Positions 12,886-20,625 of a stretch of DNA of 64,000 nucleotides are shown piece by piece. The notes beneath the pieces are model-generated. The model was not told where the DNA came from. It did no database searches and saw only the letters and a program-made list of their open reading frames with translations. Made by a program: the position numbers and the translations under genes. This stretch comes from Parachryseolinea silvisoli (lineage in GTDB: Bacteria; Bacteroidota; Bacteroidia; Cytophagales; Cyclobacteriaceae), in contig NZ_JAIOAO010000002.1 in assembly GCF_021190955.1 (NCBI RefSeq), forward strand, positions 1,116,001 to 1,180,000, in the 5' to 3' direction. Position 1 is the first letter of the stretch; every line of letters starts with the position of its first letter.

Positions 12886-13743
12886 ATGACGAATTCCAAA
12901 ACAATGCTTCACGATTTCGTACGCCGCATCACCCTGCGCGACGATCCGGACGAGATTCAGGGCATTGCATACCAGGTGTTTGAACACCTGTTCCACCTCT
13001 CGCGCACCGAAATGGTCATGGGTAAAGAAATTACCCCCACGCCGGCGGAAGAGGACCGGCTGGAAGAAATCGCGGCGCGCATCAACCGCCATGAGCCGGT
13101 GCAATATGTGTTGGGAGAAGCCTATTTTTTCGGACGCAAGTTCGCGGTGAGCAACGCGGTGCTGATTCCACGCCCTGAGACCGAAGAGCTGGTACAAGCC
13201 GTAGTGCATCACCCCCTGCCGGGTGAGTCGGACTCTTTATCCATCCTGGACATTGGTACCGGCAGCGGCTGCATCGCCACCACCCTGGCCCTGGAGCTGC
13301 GCCCGGCAAAGGTATATGCTACCGACATAAGCCCGGCAGCGCTTCAGGTTGCCGCACAAAACGCGAATACTCTACGGGCATCTGTATCCTTCCTGCTACA
13401 CGATATTTTAACAGCGCCGCTACCCTTTACAAAACTGAGTGCGGTTGTCAGTAACCCCCCTTATATCACAACGTGTGAGCAGACAGCCATGCACGCCAAT
13501 GTACTGGATTACGAACCCCACCTGGCGTTGTTTGTGCCGGACGACGACCCGCTGTTGTTTTACCGTGCCATTGCCGCCCGCGCGTTCCCGACATTGCTGT
13601 CAAAAGGCCTTCTGGCGGTTGAGATTAACGAGCGCTATGCTGCCGATGTGGAGGATGCCTTCGGCGTAGCCGGGTTTAGCAACATGAAGACAGTACGGGA
13701 TATACCGGGCAAAGACCGGATCGTAATGGCCGTGAAGCCCTGA
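12886..13743 (+). CDS. prmC: Peptide chain release factor N5-glutamine methyltransferase
   Basis: Methylates the Gln of the GGQ motif in release factors RF1/RF2, using SAM. 285 residues; N-terminal helical RF-binding domain, then a Rossmann methyltransferase with 'ILDIGTGSGCIATTLAL' (about 121-137) and the catalytic 'VVSNPPYIT' (about 187-195). The ATG at 12886 is preferred; a second ATG lies six codons on (MLHDF). A TATACTTG box about 18-25 bases upstream of the start is a one-mismatch -7 element. It ends 9 bases from the convergent ferredoxin gene. Confidence 0.94.
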   Translation: MTNSKTMLHDFVRRITLRDDPDEIQGIAYQVFEHLFHLSRTEMVMGKEITPTPAEEDRLEEIAARINRHEPVQYVLGEAYFFGRKFAVSNAVLIPRPETEELVQAVVHHPLPGESDSLSILDIGTGSGCIATTLALELRPAKVYATDISPAALQVAAQNANTLRASVSFLLHDILTAPLPFTKLSAVVSNPPYITTCEQTAMHANVLDYEPHLALFVPDDDPLLFYRAIAARAFPTLLSKGLLAVEINERYAADVEDAFGVAGFSNMKTVRDIPGKDRIVMAVKP

Positions 13744-13752
13744 GCACGAGTA

Positions 13753-14106
13753 TCAATATAGTCCGGGTTCTTCGCCCTGCATAATTTCCACCCGTAATCC
13801 GTGGAGGCGTTCGTCGATCGGTATGTGACATGACAACCGGCTGGTGGGTAATACGCCCGTCATTTTACCCAAGGTGTTGGGCTCATTGCCCGCGCGTACC
13901 AGTAATGTCTCTTCGGCATATTCCGGCAAGCGTACGTGGCAGGTGCCGCAACGGCCAATGCCTTTGCAGTCGCCGAAGTTTACAACGTATAGTTTGTCGT
14001 AGATCAATGCCATCAGGCTGCGGTATTCGTGTGTATAGGTACGAAGAACGTGTTCACGTCCCTCGTACACGATGGTGACGGCGATATCGGCTTGACGCGC
14101 TGGCAT
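13753..14106 (-). CDS. 2Fe-2S ferredoxin (last gene of the Rrf2-led operon)
   Basis: 117 residues with a plant/adrenodoxin-like 2Fe-2S fold. Cluster ligands by spacing are Cys47, Cys53, Cys56 ('GDCKGIGRCGTCHVRL') and Cys93 ('SRLSCHIPI'). Soluble, cytoplasmic electron carrier. It starts 9 bases after the ric C-terminal frame ends, on the same strand, so it closes the operon that begins with the heme-copper oxidase. Plausible roles, by inference, are electron supply to the truncated hemoglobin or to the Ric repair protein; no partner reductase is encoded nearby. Confidence 0.85.
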   Translation of the reverse strand: MPARQADIAVTIVYEGREHVLRTYTHEYRSLMALIYDKLYVVNFGDCKGIGRCGTCHVRLPEYAEETLLVRAGNEPNTLGKMTGVLPTSRLSCHIPIDERLHGLRVEIMQGEEPGLY

Positions 14107-14115
14107 GGTGGTGGA

Positions 14116-14340
14116 TCAGGCTGCGCCCGGCCCGTTCAGGGCAGCTTCAAGTTGAACGGCTTTCGCGAACAGAATGTTGTTTTCCAGGTGAATGTGCAGG
14201 TGCATATCCTTTTCGTAGTCCTTTAGCATTTTGTACGTAACGGTATAGGTAGAGCAGGCATCGGCGGGTGGCGTGTAGTCGTTGCTAAGGGCGGCCATTT
14301 TCTGAAGTTGTTGTCCTTCGTCGAGGTGGTCGTCTTTCAT
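14116..14340 (-). CDS. C-terminal half of Ric/YtfE/ScdA di-iron protein, out of frame with the N-terminal half
   Basis: This frame carries the end of the iron-sulfur repair protein: 'MKDDHLDEGQQL' and 'HLHIHLENNILF', which supply the third His and the last His/Glu ligands of the di-iron site in this family. As a free-standing frame it could start at the ATG at 14340, whose ATG shares an ATGA overlap with the stop of the N-terminal frame (14337-14340), giving 74 residues. Family-like residues (SNPIHAM) extend upstream of that ATG in the same frame, which argues that the two frames were once one gene of 244 codons. A one-base gain in the C5 run (14374-14378) would join them. Real split, frameshift mutation or sequencing error cannot be told apart here. 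Confidence 0.7.
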   Translation of the reverse strand: MKDDHLDEGQQLQKMAALSNDYTPPADACSTYTVTYKMLKDYEKDMHLHIHLENNILFAKAVQLEAALNGPGAA

Positions 14341-14849
14341 AGCATGGATGGGATTGCTGACGCTGCCAAAGATGGGGGAGCTGACAGGTCGTGATTTTCG
14401 CCGGCTTTTGCCAGGCGCTTGATATAGGGGAACAACATCAGCTCCTCTTTTTTCATGTGTACAGCCAGTGTGCCGGATGTTTCCTGAAAGATGCGACGAA
14501 TCTCGTGCAGCTCGGGATGGCGATCGCCGTGTACAGCGCAGATTTTGTCGAGGTAGCCCTGGATGATGGGTGTTTTCTCTTCTACGTAGTGGTGGTGGCG
14601 TTGGTAAATATAGTCGGCGAGCAAGTCGAGGGGCCAGGTGTCGAAGTTTATGCCGTCGCTGCCTTCGGCTTCCAGCGCCTGCAGGGCCGCGGTTACTTCG
14701 GCGGGGTCGCGTTGGCTGGCCTGGCAGGCCTCTGCCAGCGTTTGGCTGCCCATACAACAAAAGTCCAGTCCGAATTTTTCAAATACTTCGGCAGCGCGGA
14801 ATTGTTTTTTGACGATCTCACCCAGGGTGAGGGTTGTTAGAGTTTCCAT
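14337..14849 (-). CDS. ric: N-terminal part of Ric/YtfE/ScdA iron-sulfur cluster repair protein (frameshifted)
   Basis: Repairs Fe-S clusters damaged by NO or oxidants; cytoplasmic di-iron protein. The frame gives 170 residues. The N-terminal ScdA domain has 'FGLDFCCMGSQTLAEAC' with Cys31-Cys32; the hemerythrin-like part has 'YQRHHHYVEEKTP' and 'LAVHMKKEELMLFPYI', i.e. the first His and the His/Glu pair of the di-iron site. It then leaves the family pattern at about residue 157 (SAPPSLAAS...) and stops at 14337, while the family pattern continues in the next frame. Without the second half the metal site is incomplete. The start overlaps the end of the upstream membrane-protein gene by 13 bases. 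Confidence 0.85.
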   Translation of the reverse strand: METLTTLTLGEIVKKQFRAAEVFEKFGLDFCCMGSQTLAEACQASQRDPAEVTAALQALEAEGSDGINFDTWPLDLLADYIYQRHHHYVEEKTPIIQGYLDKICAVHGDRHPELHEIRRIFQETSGTLAVHMKKEELMLFPYIKRLAKAGENHDLSAPPSLAASAIPSML

Positions 14850-15277
14850 GTGGCTAATAATTTAAATCCGTATAATAAAAGTGAAATGAGCTTGACGGCT
14901 TCCAGCACGACAAAGTTGATATGCGCGTTGGAAGGTGGTGGTAGTTTACCGGCAAGGTATATGTCAATGTGCGAGGATAACAAGGGTAGAAGCCAAACGC
15001 TCTGTAATATCAGGATGGCCAGCGCCACGAGGTAAAATACCTCGGTACCCCAATCTATCTTTCTTTTAAAAAGCCAGGGAAGGGCAAGCAGCACGGCGAA
15101 CGTCAATTCTACTTTGTTTAACGCGGCAAATACTACTTTGCCGATGCTGAGTCCGATCGTCAGCGTGACGCCGGGCGCTGTGAATTTAAGCCAGGCTTCC
15201 AGGAAGCTGATGGCGCCGACACAGCCCACCCAGATAAAGGGAATGGCAATCTTACCGTATGCTACTTCTTTTCTCAT
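14837..15277 (-). CDS. Four-helix membrane protein of the NO/oxygen operon, function unknown
   Basis: 146 residues from the ATG at 15277 (MRKEVAYGKIAIPF); the longer frame from 15439 is mostly the overlapping hemoglobin gene in another frame. Predicted membrane segments near 10-28, 45-68, 80-100 and 118-138. Sequence features include 'SFLEAWLKFTAPG' and 'SHIDIYLAGKLPPPSNAH', the latter a likely loop with two histidines. Its start overlaps the hemoglobin stop by 4 bases (15274-15277) and its end overlaps ric, so it is translated with them. Not recognised with confidence; position suggests a role in NO/O2 handling, possibly heme-binding, but this is inference. Confidence 0.7.
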   Translation of the reverse strand: MRKEVAYGKIAIPFIWVGCVGAISFLEAWLKFTAPGVTLTIGLSIGKVVFAALNKVELTFAVLLALPWLFKRKIDWGTEVFYLVALAILILQSVWLLPLLSSHIDIYLAGKLPPPSNAHINFVVLEAVKLISLLLYGFKLLATWKL

Positions 15278-15690
15278 GGTGCTTTGCGGATGGCGGGTAG
15301 GTCGTGCAAGGCCTTCTCTTTGCCGGCATGGATGCGGCCATAGAAGGTATGTGCCATGATCATGGCGCGGCGTTTGGCTTCGTCGGCAATCAGTCCTTCG
15401 AACCGGTCGTCGATGGTAGCGTAGAACAAGTTGATCCATTGTTCAAAGTGCTCGGCCTCTAAAGGAAGTGCCGCGTGCCTGGCAAAAGGATTTCCTACAT
15501 ACCCACGCACGCCAAACAACGCTGCATTCCAAAAGCGGTACATGATCTCGAGGTGTGGTTGCCAGTCGTGTATACGCGCCTGGAAAACCGGCCCCAACAA
15601 TGAGTCAACCCGTATTTTATCATAAAAGGTATCGACGAGATATTTGATGTCGTCGATATTCTCAATGTCTTTCTTTGTGGTGCTTGTCAT
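15274..15690 (-). CDS. Group III truncated hemoglobin
   Basis: Small heme protein that binds O2 and NO. The ATG at 15690 (MTSTTKKDIENIDD) gives 138 residues, typical for the class. The order of motifs fits the group III (Ctb-like) form: 'LVDTFYDKIRVDSLLGPVF' (18-36), 'RFWNAALFG' (52-60), 'GNPFARHAALPLE' with the proximal His72, then 'HFEQWINLF' (81-89) and 'AMIMAHTF' (109-116). The group II glycine motifs are absent. It overlaps both neighbours by four bases (15687-15690 and 15274-15277), an arrangement typical of translational coupling. Role inferred: NO detoxification or O2/NO delivery to the oxidase made from the same operon. Confidence 0.92.
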   Translation of the reverse strand: MTSTTKKDIENIDDIKYLVDTFYDKIRVDSLLGPVFQARIHDWQPHLEIMYRFWNAALFGVRGYVGNPFARHAALPLEAEHFEQWINLFYATIDDRFEGLIADEAKRRAMIMAHTFYGRIHAGKEKALHDLPAIRKAP

Positions 15691-16094
15691 AACGCAACTT
15701 GTAGTGATGTAATAAAATAGTAGGCGGCCCAGCCGGCAAACAGGATCATGGCAGCCCAGATCCACGCCGACGCGCTGCGGGGTGTTTCGCTTCCTTCGAT
15801 AAGGAACTTGTGCTGGTCGCCTTTGCCGTAGGCATTGATCATGAGCGGCAGCACACCGTCTACGACATCATGCGCCTTGAGGCCTTCGATGCTAATGGCG
15901 GGACCGTTGCGAACGGTGAATGGTATGGTACGGAGACCTTCCTTGCCGGAAGGATCCTGCCCTACGATCTTGAGCACGTGTTCGCCGTCTACGAGCCGGC
16001 GCGTGTCGAGCTCAAAATGAATGGGCGTGTAAAAGTCACCCAGCGGAACCGTCTCGTCGTCCAGGAAGAGACGCACTTTGCTTTTTTCGCTCAT
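15687..16094 (-). CDS. Tail-anchored small protein of the oxidase operon
   Basis: 135 residues: a beta-rich soluble part (about 1-105; 'KVRLFLDDETVPLGDFYTP', 'LDGEHVLKIVGQDPSGKEG'-like strands of an Ig-like fold) and one C-terminal membrane helix (about 109-130). No signal peptide and no heme motif are seen. The gene overlaps its neighbours by 4 bases on each side. The soluble domain would be cytoplasmic if tail-anchored, or periplasmic if the helix is inserted the other way. I do not recognise a characterised family; place in the operon suggests an accessory subunit or assembly factor of the oxidase. Confidence 0.7.
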   Translation of the reverse strand: MSEKSKVRLFLDDETVPLGDFYTPIHFELDTRRLVDGEHVLKIVGQDPSGKEGLRTIPFTVRNGPAISIEGLKAHDVVDGVLPLMINAYGKGDQHKFLIEGSETPRSASAWIWAAMILFAGWAAYYFITSLQVAL

Positions 16095-16357
16095 ACAGAT
16101 TCCTGTGTAAAGATGCTATGCTTGATATGGTCTGCCTGTTTCTCGCCGGGTCTGATCAGCCACTTGATGGAGTAAAAAAGTGTAACCAGCACCACGACGG
16201 CGATTGTGATGACAATGACATAGTCCCAGTTGCTTTGCGGACCCGCGCCGTGCGTAATGCCGCGCAGCACTTTGGGTTGTTGTTTCTTACACACATCGCA
16301 GGCGAAGGAGGCACTGTATAGTACTACTGCCAGCAGGGTTATGATGATTCTCTTCAT
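16091..16357 (-). CDS. Small CcoQ-like membrane protein with N-terminal CxxC
   Basis: 88 residues from the ATG at 16357 (MKRIIITLLAVV); the longer frame upstream is the shadow of the cytochrome gene. A signal peptide or first helix ends at 'SFACDVCKKQQPK', putting a Cys-x-x-Cys pair (Cys20, Cys23) at the mature N-terminus; a second helix spans about 46-67; the tail is short and charged. Size, topology and position directly after the CcoO-like gene recall CcoQ, the small cbb3 subunit, but the CxxC is unusual. If Cys20 is a lipidation site it could instead be a small lipoprotein; a copper or heme role is possible. Four bases separate it from the upstream gene. Confidence 0.65.
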   Translation of the reverse strand: MKRIIITLLAVVLYSASFACDVCKKQQPKVLRGITHGAGPQSNWDYVIVITIAVVVLVTLFYSIKWLIRPGEKQADHIKHSIFTQESV

Positions 16358-16361
16358 GTTC

Positions 16362-17390
16362 TTATGGATTATTCTTTTTTGATTCCAGCATCGCGATGAT
16401 GTCTTTGACTTCGGCCACCGACACCTCGCGTGCGCTGTTCCCCCAGCTCGTGCGCTCGTGGTTGATGATGGCCGTGATTTCTTCGGGTTTGAGATGATTG
16501 ATCGTGCCGATGGCCGGCATCTCACCATATTCTTCGCGGGCGTTATACCCCTGCAGGATGATGTCGATCAATACTTCCGGATTGTCGTTTTGGACTATGG
16601 CGCTTCCCTTCAGCGGTGGGAAGGCGCCTTTGAGTCCGGTGCCGGTGGCCTGATGGCAGGCCTGGCAATTCGCGGCATAGATCGCGGCGCCATCTACGAC
16701 GGCTTCGGCGGGTGCTGCGTCGGTGGTAGTGGTTTGCGCCGTGGCGGCAGGTGCTTGTGATTTATACAGGAAGGCAGGTGTAACCGTACCATCGGGCAGC
16801 GGCGCTTGTTGCAGCGACTGCAGGTAGGCAACCAGTTGCAGCGCTTCGCGTGTGGCCACGACAGTGCCCTCCTGGCCGCGCAGAAACTCAGTCGGTACGT
16901 TTACCACTTTGTCGCCTTCTTCTACGTGCGTGGTGACCTTGAACATCCACGGATAGGCGGGCATAATCGATTCTTCTACGACCGCGCGGGGATTGTACAG
17001 GTGCAACAGGTGCCAGTCGACACTGGGCAACCGGGTGCCGATGTTGGTCAGGTCGGGGCCGGTGCGCTCGGTGCCCATGAGGGTGGCCGTGTTCATCCAC
17101 CAATGCATGCGTGTGTTGTGGGCATAGTCGGCGGCGACGTTCGGACGCGGGCCCCAGACGTTGTCCATAGCAACGTTGCGCACTTGTTGGGAGTGGCAGG
17201 CCACGCAGCCATTGGCAATAAAGACATGCTTGCCCGCCAGTGCGTCTTCACGCAAGGGCTCGGTGCCGGGCAGCGGCGCGTTGTTCTTCTGGTTATACAG
17301 CGCCGGAAGTATCACGACGACAAGCGACAAGCCTACAAAGAACAGGAAGGCTGTGGTATATAAGTATGTGTTATTACGAAAGAGATTCAT
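16362..17390 (-). CDS. cbb3-type oxidase subunit II (CcoO-like) fused to a c-type cytochrome domain
   Basis: 342 residues from the ATG at 17390 (MNLFRNNTYLYT). One N-terminal membrane helix (about 11-31) anchors a periplasmic part with two heme c sites: Cys62-Val-Ala-Cys-His66 followed by the CcoO-type 'SQQVRNVAMDNVWGPRP', and Cys242-Gln-Ala-Cys-His246 in a class I cytochrome c domain (about 233-338) with Met291 as a likely axial ligand. A Thr/Ala-rich linker (about 212-230) joins the two. The fusion would do the work of CcoO plus one CcoP heme domain in a single chain, passing electrons to subunit I. It starts 13 bases after the subunit I stop. Confidence 0.9.
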   Translation of the reverse strand: MNLFRNNTYLYTTAFLFFVGLSLVVVILPALYNQKNNAPLPGTEPLREDALAGKHVFIANGCVACHSQQVRNVAMDNVWGPRPNVAADYAHNTRMHWWMNTATLMGTERTGPDLTNIGTRLPSVDWHLLHLYNPRAVVEESIMPAYPWMFKVTTHVEEGDKVVNVPTEFLRGQEGTVVATREALQLVAYLQSLQQAPLPDGTVTPAFLYKSQAPAATAQTTTTDAAPAEAVVDGAAIYAANCQACHQATGTGLKGAFPPLKGSAIVQNDNPEVLIDIILQGYNAREEYGEMPAIGTINHLKPEEITAIINHERTSWGNSAREVSVAEVKDIIAMLESKKNNP

Positions 17391-17403
17391 ATTGGTCAGA
17401 TGA

Positions 17404-19209
17404 TTAAGCCAGCGCTTCGCGTACAGGCGTTGCCGCCGGGTGGGCCGCGCGTACGCCCACCACCATGCGATAAAAATTATAGGCAAAGAGCAAATGCGAC
17501 AGCCACATCAGCGAGCCGCCAATGGCGCGCCACAGCCAGTAAGGGGCCATGAGCACAACACTTTCGATGAAGGGTTTACCTTCCATCCACATCAGGCCGC
17601 GCAGCGTACCGCCGATCATGAGCGGAATAGTATAAAACATCATCCCCAGGAATGCCAGCCAGAAGTGTGCGCCCACCAGCCACTGCGGAGGCTCGTGGCC
17701 GGTGAGGCGTGGCACCAAAGCATAGATGCTGGCCCACAGTAAGAAGGCAATGATGCCATACATCGTCAAGTGTGAGTGGGCCACGGTAAAGTCTGTAAAG
17801 TGCCACAGCAGGTTGGTAAACCGAAAGGCTTCGGCCGTTCCCTGCAAGGAACCGGTAAAGTAGAAGATGATGCCCGTGACATAGAACGGCAGCGTATAGC
17901 TGCTGGCAATCTTGTTCCAGCCACCTTTTAAGGTCATGAAGAAGTTGGTCGTGCCGGCAATGACCGGTATCAACATGCCCATGCTTCCTACAATAGCCAC
18001 CGTTTGCAACCACCAGGGTATGGAGCTGAACACAAAGTGGTGCGTGCCGATAAGCGTATAGAAAAGAATCTGTGCCCAGAAAGCCAGGATGCCGAGACTG
18101 TAGGAGTATATCGGTTTGTTTAGCTGTTGTGGCAGGAAGTAATACACGAGGCCCAGGTTGAAGAGCATGAACCACATGCCTACGCCCTGGTGCATATAAT
18201 ACCCCTGCACGATGGTCTCGCCCAGGCCGTTTTGCCACGTAGGCCAATAGGCAATGACGGTGATTACCAATACAAAGATGATGGCCGAGAGGATGTACCA
18301 GTTCGAGATATATATTTCTGTTGTGGTACGGCGGGCTACCGTGCGAAGAAAGTTGATAAGCGTAATGATCAGTCCCAGGCCAAAGAGCGCCATCACCGGC
18401 CACACGTACTCGCGGTATTCGCCGCCGGCGTTGTTGATGCCATTCATCAGGCAAAGGCTGCCGAGCGCTACCGCGGCATTCACGAGGATGAGTGTTTGCC
18501 AGCCCTGGCGTATACTGGCGATTGCGGTATTACTAACCTTTGGCACAACATAGTATCCCAGGCCGAGCATGGCGAGTGTCGACCAGCCCCAGAACACCGC
18601 GTTGGTGTGTACGGGGCGAAGGCGCCCAAAGCTCAGCCACGGCACAGTGTCGGCATCGGGCGATACGAACTTGATGCCAAGGTACTCGCCCACCGTTGTA
18701 CCAATCACCAGCCAGCACGTGGCGGAGCCCAGGTACCATAGAATGAGGCGTGTGAGCTTCGGGTCGACCGCCGGTCTGGACTGTGCTTTTTTCTTTTCGG
18801 CTACAAACGGTATAACATGTTCGTTGCTGGCCTGTTGAATGATGCCCCGGCTGTCGTCCGGGGTGTTGGCACCCGCCAGTTCGCGGCCGCTAAGTTGATA
18901 TACCAGGGTGGGCTTGCGCTGCAGGCGGGCGGCATTGATGGCCTCTCCCTCCAGGTATTCAAGCTGGTCGGCTTGCGTGGTGGGTTGCTTCTGCCACTGC
19001 AGACGGAGCAACGTTCTGCGTACCTGCCATATCATAAAGATGAATGCGGCCAGCAGCGGGATAAGAATCAGCACCAGTGTAATGAGAATGCCGGGCTGTG
19101 CTAACAAGGGGGCACTTTGTTCTGCCACGGGCTGCGCGTAGCCTGCCAGCGGCAACGCGGGAATCGTGAGCAAGAGAATGTAGGTAAGAAGCGTTCGTGC
19201 AGGTCTCAT
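17404..19209 (-). CDS. Heme-copper oxidase subunit I, cbb3-like (CcoN), with N-terminal extension
   Basis: 601 residues, about 120 longer than a usual CcoN. Residues 1-26 look like a signal peptide, 40-63 is a membrane helix, and about 65-150 is a charged linker; the catalytic core follows. Metal ligands visible: low-spin heme His201 in 'RPVHTNAVFWGW', CuB His340 in 'YYMHQGVGMWF' and His390-His391 in 'GTHHFVF', heme ligands His478 and His480 in 'AHSHLTMYG'. The cbb3 cross-linked Tyr position is kept in 'PIYSYSLGILAFW' (Tyr368/Tyr370), and the NorB glutamates are absent, favouring O2 reduction. The A-H-S-H-x-x-x-Y-G motif however is closer to NO reductases. Operon partners (Ric, hemoglobin) point to NO or low oxygen. 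An Rrf2 operator-like element lies 12-31 bases upstream. Confidence 0.88.
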   Translation of the reverse strand: MRPARTLLTYILLLTIPALPLAGYAQPVAEQSAPLLAQPGILITLVLILIPLLAAFIFMIWQVRRTLLRLQWQKQPTTQADQLEYLEGEAINAARLQRKPTLVYQLSGRELAGANTPDDSRGIIQQASNEHVIPFVAEKKKAQSRPAVDPKLTRLILWYLGSATCWLVIGTTVGEYLGIKFVSPDADTVPWLSFGRLRPVHTNAVFWGWSTLAMLGLGYYVVPKVSNTAIASIRQGWQTLILVNAAVALGSLCLMNGINNAGGEYREYVWPVMALFGLGLIITLINFLRTVARRTTTEIYISNWYILSAIIFVLVITVIAYWPTWQNGLGETIVQGYYMHQGVGMWFMLFNLGLVYYFLPQQLNKPIYSYSLGILAFWAQILFYTLIGTHHFVFSSIPWWLQTVAIVGSMGMLIPVIAGTTNFFMTLKGGWNKIASSYTLPFYVTGIIFYFTGSLQGTAEAFRFTNLLWHFTDFTVAHSHLTMYGIIAFLLWASIYALVPRLTGHEPPQWLVGAHFWLAFLGMMFYTIPLMIGGTLRGLMWMEGKPFIESVVLMAPYWLWRAIGGSLMWLSHLLFAYNFYRMVVGVRAAHPAATPVREALA

Positions 19210-19220
19210 AACCGTATATA

Positions 19221-19240
19221 TTAAGACATTTTTGTCCTTT
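19221..19240 (-). promoter_or_regulatory. Operator-like element upstream of the oxidase operon
   Basis: On the plus strand the 20 bases end in TTTTTGTCCTTT and match 15 of 20 positions of the element upstream of the Rrf2 gene (19749-19768), including a shared TTTTGTCCTTT. GACA and TGTC flank an A/T centre on the minus strand. It lies 12-31 bases before the ATG of subunit I. Proposed binding site of the Rrf2 regulator; binding is inferred. Confidence 0.55.
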
Positions 19241-19256
19241 ATTTGAGTAAATTTTT

Positions 19257-19691
19257 TTAGACGCGCTTCAGGTGGAGAACTCCTTTTTCCAGGAGCTCAT
19301 TGAACTCGCCCACCTGGGTAGTTTCTAAAAGTGATTTGATCTTATTGCGGATGAGCTTAAACTCATCGTGTATAGGGCAGGGTTTTTTCTCGTTACACTC
19401 CGGCAAGCCGAGACCACAACCAGTAAAAAGTTGATCACCGTCGATTGCCAATACCACTTCGGCCAACGTTACTTTCAGGCCCGGGGCGTCCATATAAAAG
19501 CCGCCATTGGGACCTTTGACCGATTGCACCAAACCTTGCCGGCTAAGCGCCTGCAGGATTTTGGCCATAAACGCCTCGGGCGAGTCAATGCCCTGTGCGA
19601 CGTCTTTCAACCCGACACGCTCCCCCTGCCGCGATTGCTGGGCAATGTAGATCATCGCACGTATGCCGTATTCACAAGCCTTTGAGAACAT
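19257..19691 (-). CDS. Rrf2-family Fe-S transcriptional regulator (NsrR/IscR-like)
   Basis: 144 residues from the ATG at 19691 (MFSKACEYGIRAM), the standard N-terminus of the family; a longer reading from 19778 would include the -7 box and operator. Winged helix at about 1-70 with 'DSPEAFMAKILQALSRQGLVQSVKGPNGGF'-type recognition region (36-65). Cluster ligands: Cys92, Cys99, Cys105 and His108, i.e. C-x6-C-x5-C-x2-H, close to IscR spacing. NsrR-type members sense NO directly by cluster nitrosylation. The gene lies 47 bases upstream of the oxidase gene in the same direction and shares an operator-like element with it, so it most likely regulates itself and the operon. NO or oxygen as signal is inferred from the operon content. 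Confidence 0.88.
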   Translation of the reverse strand: MFSKACEYGIRAMIYIAQQSRQGERVGLKDVAQGIDSPEAFMAKILQALSRQGLVQSVKGPNGGFYMDAPGLKVTLAEVVLAIDGDQLFTGCGLGLPECNEKKPCPIHDEFKLIRNKIKSLLETTQVGEFNELLEKGVLHLKRV

Positions 19692-19724
19692 GCCGTTTAG
19701 TGGTTGGTATGACGTTGAACGGGG

Positions 19725-19732
19725 CAAAGATA
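19725..19732 (-). promoter_or_regulatory. -7 box of the Rrf2 regulator gene
   Basis: Reading on the minus strand gives TATCTTTG, a perfect TAnnTTTG. Predicted start of transcription near 19719, leader about 28 bases before the ATG at 19691. The inverted repeat at 19749-19768 covers the -33 region, the expected place for repression. Confidence 0.6.
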
Positions 19733-19748
19733 CAATAGGTTGAGGAAT

Positions 19749-19768
19749 AAAGGATAATTTTGTCCTTT
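19749..19768 (-). promoter_or_regulatory. Operator-like inverted repeat upstream of the Rrf2 gene
   Basis: AAAGGA at 19749-19754 and TCCTTT at 19763-19768 form a perfect 6-base inverted repeat with 8 bases between. It overlaps the -33 region of the regulator's own promoter and is matched at 15 of 20 positions by the element before the oxidase gene. Best read as an autoregulatory Rrf2 site. It could also affect the divergent DUF2520 gene, whose start lies 81 bases away. Confidence 0.6.
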
Positions 19769-19848
19769 TATTGTTCATGGATGGTTCTGCTAACGGAATG
19801 CGGTTTTTCCCGGAAAAAGGGCATTTTTACAATTGAAACGTAACAAGT

Positions 19849-20625
19849 ATGCAGGTATCGATCATCGGTTCGGGCAACCTGGCGTGGCATTTGGCGCCGG
19901 CCCTGGACAACACGGACTTTGCCGTCCGCGAGGTATATAGCCGGAACCCGGTTCACGCCGCCGCCCTGGTGGAAAAACTATACGAGGGCCAGGTGAAGGC
20001 GTCGCTGGATTTTTCCACCAGCACATCGCGCATCTTTATCCTGGCGGTGACCGACGATGTTATAGAAGATATTGTGCAAGAGATCATCCTGCCGGCCGAT
20101 GCGATTCTGGTGCACACATCCGGTAGCAGGCCGCTGAGCGTGTTAGGCTTTGCGGCCACGCCAAACATCGGTGTATTTTATCCCCTGCAGACCTTTTCTA
20201 AATCCAAGAAGGTGGATTTTAAGGACATACCGCTCTTTATAGAAAGCGATAACAAGGAGACCGAAAAGGTACTGCAAAAGATGGCGAAGGCACTGGGCCG
20301 TGATGCTGTGAAGATTACGTCGCACGACCGGAAGGCTTTGCATGTGGCGGCGGTGTTTGCATCGAACTTCACCAACCATATGTTGCTGCTGGCGCAGGAG
20401 GTTATGAAAGATAATAGTCTCAGCTTTGACTGGCTGAAGCCACTCATTGCCGAGACTATTAATAAGAGCTTAAGCATCGGCCCCGAGAATGCGCAGACCG
20501 GACCGGCTAAGCGTGGTGACTTTGAGATCTTAGACAACCATATGATCTTTTTGCAGACCGATCCGTCGTTGGCGGAGGTGTATAAGATCGTGAGTCAGCA
20601 TATCGTTGATCGGTATCACAGTTAG
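19849..20625 (+). CDS. Rossmann-like DUF2520 oxidoreductase
   Basis: 258 residues. N-terminal NAD(P)-binding Rossmann domain with 'SIIGSGNLAWHLAPAL' (4-19) and a ProC-like layout ('LAVTDDVIEDIV' about 65-76, 'LVHTSGSRPL' about 86-95); C-terminal helical DUF2520 domain (about 125-250) with the conserved 'HDRKALHVAAVFASNFTNHM' region. The family resembles pyrroline-5-carboxylate and F420-dependent reductases, but the substrate is not known. The gene is divergent from the Rrf2 regulator and convergent with the M2 peptidase gene (4-base gap). Confidence 0.85.
   Translation: MQVSIIGSGNLAWHLAPALDNTDFAVREVYSRNPVHAAALVEKLYEGQVKASLDFSTSTSRIFILAVTDDVIEDIVQEIILPADAILVHTSGSRPLSVLGFAATPNIGVFYPLQTFSKSKKVDFKDIPLFIESDNKETEKVLQKMAKALGRDAVKITSHDRKALHVAAVFASNFTNHMLLLAQEVMKDNSLSFDWLKPLIAETINKSLSIGPENAQTGPAKRGDFEILDNHMIFLQTDPSLAEVYKIVSQHIVDRYHS

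Follow-up and report, generated by a model that had tools for sequence, protein, structure and literature searches.

A widespread Bacteroidota operon built around a predicted divergent C-type oxidase and linked to nitric oxide genes

Introduction

Here we describe a minus-strand operon from Parachryseolinea silvisoli (Bacteroidota), found in a 64-kb stretch of contig NZ_JAIOAO010000002.1 that is called the window throughout, in which genes for an Rrf2 regulator and a CcoN-like haem-copper subunit I are joined to genes for a truncated globin, the repair protein Ric and a ferredoxin-like protein. Among the closest described systems are the C-type (cbb3) oxidases of low-oxygen respiration, the nitric oxide reductases (NORs) and the NsrR regulon. 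In the parts of the comparative account used here, C-type oxygen reductases have a cross-linkable tyrosine in helix VII (Tyr-II) and an alternative K-channel formed by Tyr-II, a Ser and a Tyr, and NORs are marked by the motifs H-X-aromatic-X-E and H-H-X-aromatic-aromatic-X17-E and by lack of the cross-linked tyrosine (PMC3084760). The cbb3 oxidases are themselves reported, in an excerpt of a further account, to reduce nitric oxide (NO) to nitrous oxide (N2O) (PMC8780969). For the NsrR regulon of proteobacteria, Bacillus and Streptomyces, the targets named in the consulted part of the source include hmp, dnrN/ric, norB and nirK (PMC1274295).

The operon shares features with all three. Like the ccoNOQP systems it has the subunit I fold, the metal ligands, the helix VII tyrosine and a CcoO-like cytochrome. 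It differs from them in the residues at the Ser240, His243 and Glu323 positions (in what we take to be P. stutzeri numbering), in an N-terminal extension and a clade of its own, in the fusion of CcoO to a second cytochrome domain, and in having sm2, a small protein without haem in the window, where cbb3 has CcoP. With cNOR and qNOR the enzyme shares the superfamily, and the same operator links qNOR in some relatives; it differs in lacking the NOR motif, in having the tyrosine and in its separate clade. The likeness to the NsrR regulon, as far as the partial account of the latter goes, lies in an Rrf2-family regulator with hmp, ric and nirK among the linked genes; the putative operator is AATAAAAGA-N8-TCTTTTATT here and gATGyAT-N5-ATrCATc for NsrR, an oxidase operon is included here, and the regulator scores below the cut-off of the NsrR model. 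The palindromic operator is, as a prediction, new in this analysis, and no description of it or of the operon was recognised in a literature search conducted largely without subscription journals and preprints. Comparison of related loci indicates that the operon is widespread in Bacteroidota, linked to NO and built around a divergent C-type oxidase.

Results

Relatives were gathered by a contig scan (at least 424), of which the best 80, together with ten other loci and the window, made up the 91 loci examined. Genes for the CcoN-like protein, the cytochrome c and two small membrane proteins, sm1 and sm2, form a core that is complete in 87 loci, contig ends falling inside the core in the other four, and an Rrf2 gene stands directly upstream of the ccoN-like gene in 65 of the 91. 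Downstream of the 87 sm2 genes the partners vary: 60 loci have a globin (within 1.5 kb), 39 have Ric (4 kb), 30 have a separate hemerythrin and 35 a ferredoxin (5 kb for each), and 22 have sm3, a third and optional small membrane protein (3 kb). At least one of globin, Ric and hemerythrin lies within 5 kb downstream in 67. This order recurs at loci whose CcoN-like protein is only 53-70% identical to that of the window (89% at one same-genus locus) and is thus conserved above chance. A preliminary description of the window had named a lack of conserved gene order in related genomes as its refutation, and the wide conservation seen here does not refute it. Its proposal of one combined oxidase and NO-defence complex appears right in its NO direction and is not supported as a single complex, since globin, sm3, Ric and ferredoxin are each present at some loci and absent from others. 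The constant core is the oxidase with sm1 and sm2, and the genes for NO and iron-sulfur (Fe-S) repair are frequent partners.

A close form of the CcoN-like protein is found in 4 of 39 relatives and in 18 of 232 genomes of the order; culturable carriers occur in Dyadobacter, Chitinophaga and Pedobacter. Further, a search for sm2 in 296 genomes of the phylum returned 10 matches, eight of which (the window included) have the operon core; on inspection the core was not there at the other two, L054 and L055 (locus, genome and contig labels L, G and C are ours). In five distant members, L049-L053, sm2 and a cytochrome c form one fused protein, and an Rrf2 gene in front is lacking. Ric lies upstream of ccoN instead of downstream in L051 and L052, so that these partners are arranged differently there, and neither globin nor Ric was found at the L053 locus.

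Subunit I is, as judged from its residues and its place in a tree, a divergent C-type (cbb3-like) enzyme with its own clade. Residues 163-589 of the CcoN-like protein align with solved cbb3 CcoN, and the NCBIfam ccoN equivalog gives 239.1 bits, below its cut-off of 583. All 91 family members conserve six His residues, the predicted ligands of haems and CuB, together with the tyrosine of helix VII that a cross-link would involve. In canonical CcoN, Ser240, His243 and Glu323 are invariant in the 29 sequences compared (26 from Bacteroidota and three proteobacterial; L031 was dropped for want of the anchor motif). In the family the Ser240 position is Gly and the Glu323 position Gln in 91/91, and the His243 position is occupied by Ala in 90 members and by Gly in the remaining one; the window's protein has Gly373, Ala376 and Gln456. 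The K-channel Ser of C-type enzymes, which we take to be Ser240, is thus replaced throughout, and the tyrosines are retained. Nearly all members (99%) share Gln380 (window numbering), four residues before the tyrosine, at a position where Leu stands in the canonical and divergent rows. In a 70-sequence tree that included 31 of the 91 members, the family rows fall together in a single clade (99/99), distinct from that of canonical CcoN (100/100), and these 31 rows are separated from seven NOR rows with 100/100, with a warning from the tool that long branches meet.

The divergent CcoN proteins of proteobacterial plasmids (Paraburkholderia pBN2, S. meliloti pSymA, P. fungorum) resemble the family in having Gln at 323, no His at 243 and the tyrosine. 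They differ in retaining Ser240 and in their neighbours, and they stand on long branches of uncertain placement in the tree. At these plasmid loci (L148, L149, L150) no CcoQ or CcoP is annotated alongside, and one of them lies near a SorA-like gene (560.8 bits, cut-off 600).

The altered canonical proton-channel and Glu positions, changed family-wide, would suit an enzyme that is chiefly an NO reductase, with an origin among C-type oxidases separate from that of cNOR and qNOR, in which case the operon would be a unit of NO removal and repair. The other residues speak against it: the NOR motifs are absent, the window having H340-Q-G-V-G and H390-H-F-V-F in their places, and the tyrosine that NORs lack is present in 91/91. 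By these residues, assignment to the known NO reductases was ruled out.

The Rrf2 regulator of the operon keeps its Cys3-His ligand pattern in 64 of 65 aligned rows, the remaining row having a gap, and the putative operator AATAAAAGA-N8-TCTTTTATT lies upstream of rrf2 in many loci. The seed consensus was drawn by eye from all loci, the window among them, so that the tests on held-out loci and on the window are not fully blind; the matrices excluded the rows under test. A matrix from half of the set (28 sites of 33 loci) was applied to 32 upstream regions left out of it, and 29 of them scored higher than the 99th percentile of shuffled sequences. When both strands of the 64 kb were scanned with a matrix from 57 of the 64 non-window loci, the two best places were those upstream of rrf2 and in the rrf2-ccoN gap (Table 1); the next place elsewhere scored 7.9 bits, and none of 1000 shuffles reached either operator score. 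Generic scoring of palindromes upstream of rrf2 had been weak (median 8.0 of 11 pairs vs 7.7 shuffled, with 20/65 loci at p up to 0.05) and was replaced by the matrix. A first operator pattern was discarded because it matched three loci only.

Copies of the operator pattern in carrier genomes point to the genes with which the operon may be co-regulated. Among 19 such loci that were opened, four are the operon itself, three rrf2-ric and two ric-like genes; nirK, hmp facing rrf2, rrf2-qNOR and qNOR behind a small gene occur once each, as do another rrf2 and nadA, and four have no evident link. The operator-bearing gene for an NO-inducible flavohemoprotein (hmp) scores 522.8 bits with its model (cut-off 432) and the nirK gene 343.8 (cut-off 296.3); the two qNOR were identified by PF22085 matches, their pieces giving no NCBIfam match. 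L167 has two sites, one in the interval from rrf2 to qNOR and the other about 500 bases upstream of the first, an arrangement much like that of the window. The Rrf2 proteins at the non-oxidase operator loci are 46-57% identical to that of the window and have the same Cys3-His pattern. Of all the observations, this sharing of the operator, which is drawn from relatives, appears to speak most strongly for membership of the operon in an NO regulon.

Regulation by another signal has to be weighed at this point. If Rrf2 read iron, Fe-S supply or O2, the operon would be a low-O2 or iron-stress oxidase operon and its NO genes incidental. The best equivalog of Rrf2 is in fact IscR (59.4 bits, cut-off 207.55), with which it shares an IscR-like Cys3-His set, and a perfect operator copy lies between nadA and an opposite-strand gene at L159 (G021:C12:175666-175691), the nadA product being an Fe-S enzyme. 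Since the operator also stands before flavohemoprotein, nirK and qNOR genes, we regard this reading as distinctly unlikely.

The 7.9-Mb genome of the window (13 contigs) encodes three PF00115 enzymes: the CcoN-like protein, a canonical CcoN-CcoO fusion (1293 bits, cut-off 1080) with an apparently full cbb3 cluster around it, as judged by eye, and a third of COX1 type. Canonical CcoN is over its cut-off in 17 of the 18 carriers. Three genomes, G368, G444 and G499, have the CcoN-like gene in two copies, and G499 has no canonical CcoN over the cut-off.

Co-occurrence was scored in the same 232 genomes, 18 carriers and 214 others, with kinship ignored in all p values. Carriers are enriched in qNOR over the cut-off (6/18 vs 15/214, p 0.0024), NirK (3/18 vs 7/214, p 0.034) and NosZ (9/18, the window's genome included, vs 42/214, p 0.006). 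Together with the shared operator this agrees with the NO link that the preliminary description had proposed. Twelve carriers, among them the window's genome, have no qNOR over the cut-off. That genome has a NosZ match (G000:C9:385602-385814) and neither NirK nor qNOR over the cut-off, no search having been made for NirS or cNOR, and may thus belong to an N2O reducer without NO production of its own through these enzymes.

These distributions bear further on an NO reductase function. In its favour are the NO regulon, the NO gene neighbours and the 12 of 18 carriers without qNOR over the cut-off. On the other side, qNOR is commoner in carriers than in other genomes, and the three NirK genomes that have no qNOR over the cut-off (G308, G427, G504; cNOR was not searched) all lack the CcoN-like gene, which speaks against the CcoN-like protein as a stand-in NO reductase. 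In view of the residues as well, we consider it unlikely that the enzyme is chiefly an NO reductase.

The cytochrome encoded after ccoN matches FixO (104.5 bits, cut-off 29.6) and Cytochrome_CBB3 (55.4 bits, cut-off 27). The three small membrane proteins, unassigned in the preliminary description, now differ in standing: sm1 and sm2 are probably oxidase subunits, because the ccoN-like gene and the cytochrome c accompany them in 87/87 loci with sm2 and the five distant members have sm2 as part of a cytochrome c fusion, and sm3 has no family match in Pfam or NCBIfam. The predicted structures of sm2 and sm3 gave no match in the PDB by Foldseek at E up to 0.001. Family models found no two-haem CcoP subunit among the ten frames, and the sm2-cytochrome fusions of the distant members are one-haem. 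Three candidates for a CcoP homologue were compared by hhalign: the N-terminal extension of CcoN (probability 28.6) and sm1 (19.4) are unsupported, and the value for sm2 (94.6) depends on the cytochromes to which it is fused in distant members, so that for sm2 itself homology to CcoP is not claimed.

That the operon holds an ordinary second cbb3 copy with chance neighbours would fit the family models, by which subunit I is a CcoN relative. It is contradicted by the family-wide residue changes, the separate clade and the absence of a detected CcoP-like two-haem subunit from the unit, and also by the conserved order and the shared operator; we hold it to be most improbable.

The operon in the window is real and consists of ten tightly packed frames, all on the minus strand, at 13753-19691 (Table 1). 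The ATGA overlaps of four bases noted in the preliminary description are all exact (16091-16094, 15687-15690 and 15274-15277), and its gaps of 4-13 bases hold for ccoN/cytochrome c (13), cytochrome c/sm1 (4) and Ric/ferredoxin (9). Its account of the packing needs amendment at two places, the sm3/ric overlap of 13 bases and the rrf2-ccoN gap of 47 bases, which contains a putative regulatory site. The start of rrf2 is probably 19691 rather than 19778, because in the same-genus relative and most other loci the open reading frame has 142-151 amino acids from the matching point. Plus-strand genes flank the operon on both sides (12886-13743 and 19849-20625).

Table 1. Features of the operon in the window, in order of transcription (aa, amino acids; TM, transmembrane segment; pLDDT, predicted local distance difference test score)
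Feature	Position	Strand	Evidence
Putative operator 1, palindrome upstream of rrf2	19746..19771		Best matrix place in 64 kb, 24.6 bits
Rrf2 regulator, C-x6-C-x5-C-x2-H	19257..19691	-	TIGR00738 92 bits, cut-off 73.3
Putative operator 2, rrf2-ccoN gap	19218..19243		Second-best matrix place, 14.3 bits
CcoN-like subunit I with N-terminal extension, 601 aa	17404..19209	-	PF00115 278.5 bits
CcoO-like cytochrome fused to second cytochrome c domain; two-haem, 342 aa	16362..17390	-	FixO, Cytochrome_CBB3
sm1: signal-like start, CxxC, one TM, conserved PGE..HIK tail; 88 aa	16091..16357	-	25-row alignment
sm2: beta-rich N-terminal domain, C-terminal TM; 135 aa	15687..16094	-	Model, mean pLDDT 69.9
Truncated globin	15274..15690	-	PF01152 30 bits, cut-off 21
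sm3: four-helix membrane protein	14837..15277	-	Model, mean pLDDT 92.1
Ric part 1: ScdA_N and start of hemerythrin domain	14337..14849	-	PF04405 69.2 bits; TIGR03652 138.6 bits
Ric part 2, other frame: end of hemerythrin domain	14116..14340	-	TIGR03652 82.2 bits
Ferredoxin-like protein	13753..14106	-	PF00111 15.3 bits (below cut-off 21); Cys pattern by eye

The globin, a putative member of group III, was recognised by its PF01152 match. Both Ric frames stay below the equivalog cut-off of TIGR03652 (204.7 bits); the frameshift lies within the hemerythrin domain, where the frames overlap at 14337-14340. The same-genus relative L044 has Ric in a single 244-aa frame with both Pfam domains over their cut-offs, and a single-frame Ric occurs somewhere in the fetched stretch in 40 of 87 loci. 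Part 2 differs from L044 by 22 synonymous and five other codon differences, and because these are mostly synonymous the break appears to be recent or an assembly error. The ferredoxin-like protein was assigned from the pattern C-x5-C-x2-C...C, seen by eye, its Pfam Fer2 score being below the cut-off.

Other genes recur in the operon or beside it. They encode a DUF2249 protein, an Fe-S assembly protein, a protein of the tryptophan 2,3-dioxygenase family (inside the operon in 10 loci, e.g. L090:14851-15759) and a hexameric tyrosine-coordinated haem protein (inside it in six, e.g. L126:3130-3375). A membrane protein of about 426 aa without Pfam or NCBIfam match is encoded downstream in 11 loci (e.g. 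L110:15359-16639). A typical operon with a CcoN 68% identical to that of the window is also present in L070, a metagenome-assembled genome labelled Verrucomicrobia.

Discussion

Gene order and its conservation, the operator, its occurrence with NO genes in relatives and the active-site residues can be read directly from the sequences. They are best explained, in our judgement with a fair balance of probability on its side, by an NO-derepressed operon for an alternative terminal oxidase and Fe-S repair. An Rrf2 repressor, its Fe-S cluster bound by three Cys and one His, would sit on two palindromes, before rrf2 itself and before ccoN, and keep the unit off, until NO damaged the cluster and freed the promoter. 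The CcoN-like protein, the two-haem CcoO-like cytochrome, sm1 and sm2 would then assemble into an alternative C-type terminal oxidase that draws on the cytochrome c pool for electrons and passes them mainly to O2 while NO blocks the other oxidases; it may perhaps turn over some NO. The globin would bind or oxidise NO, and Ric and the ferredoxin would repair Fe-S clusters. Such an oxidase would act beside the canonical cbb3 enzyme and not in its place.

Several observations weigh against this explanation. Rrf2 gives 43.6 bits with the NCBIfam NsrR equivalog, far from the cut-off of 182, and no more than 29 of 65 loci have a site in the rrf2-ccoN gap that exceeds the 99th percentile of shuffles. 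When as many as two mismatches are allowed, the operator pattern occurs in just 11 of 20 carrier genomes, at 28 places, and catches the carrier's own operon in 4 of 20, and a reversed control finds 12 places in eight of the same genomes. The window's genome has one place with up to three mismatches, where the reversed control gives 2 and 1. No globin, Ric or hemerythrin lies within 5 kb in 20 of 87 loci, partly owing to contig ends, and an enzyme that has lost the canonical channel residues could have a function other than that of an oxidase.

A further reading goes beyond the NO-derepressed oxidase operon. The enzyme would represent a separate haem-copper class, a relative of canonical cbb3 that stands outside it and has no usual proton-channel residues, and would reduce both O2 and NO after recruitment to an NO regulon in Bacteroidota. 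Its subunits would include sm1 (CxxC) and sm2 (predicted beta domain), which match no known oxidase subunit in family searches. This we regard as conceivable, though rather improbable.

The operon joins respiration and the repair of nitrosative stress in one genetic unit in Bacteroidota and looks like a means to keep respiring under attack by nitric oxide; a concrete putative operator and a candidate regulon are now available. The CcoN-like family provides a natural set of C-type enzymes that retain the catalytic tyrosine and are changed at positions where all the canonical sequences compared agree, and the proton route to the active site, as well as pumping, become directly testable in it. 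Because half of the carriers, the window's genome among them, have an N2O reductase, the unit may also bear on the NO tolerance of N2O-consuming bacteria.

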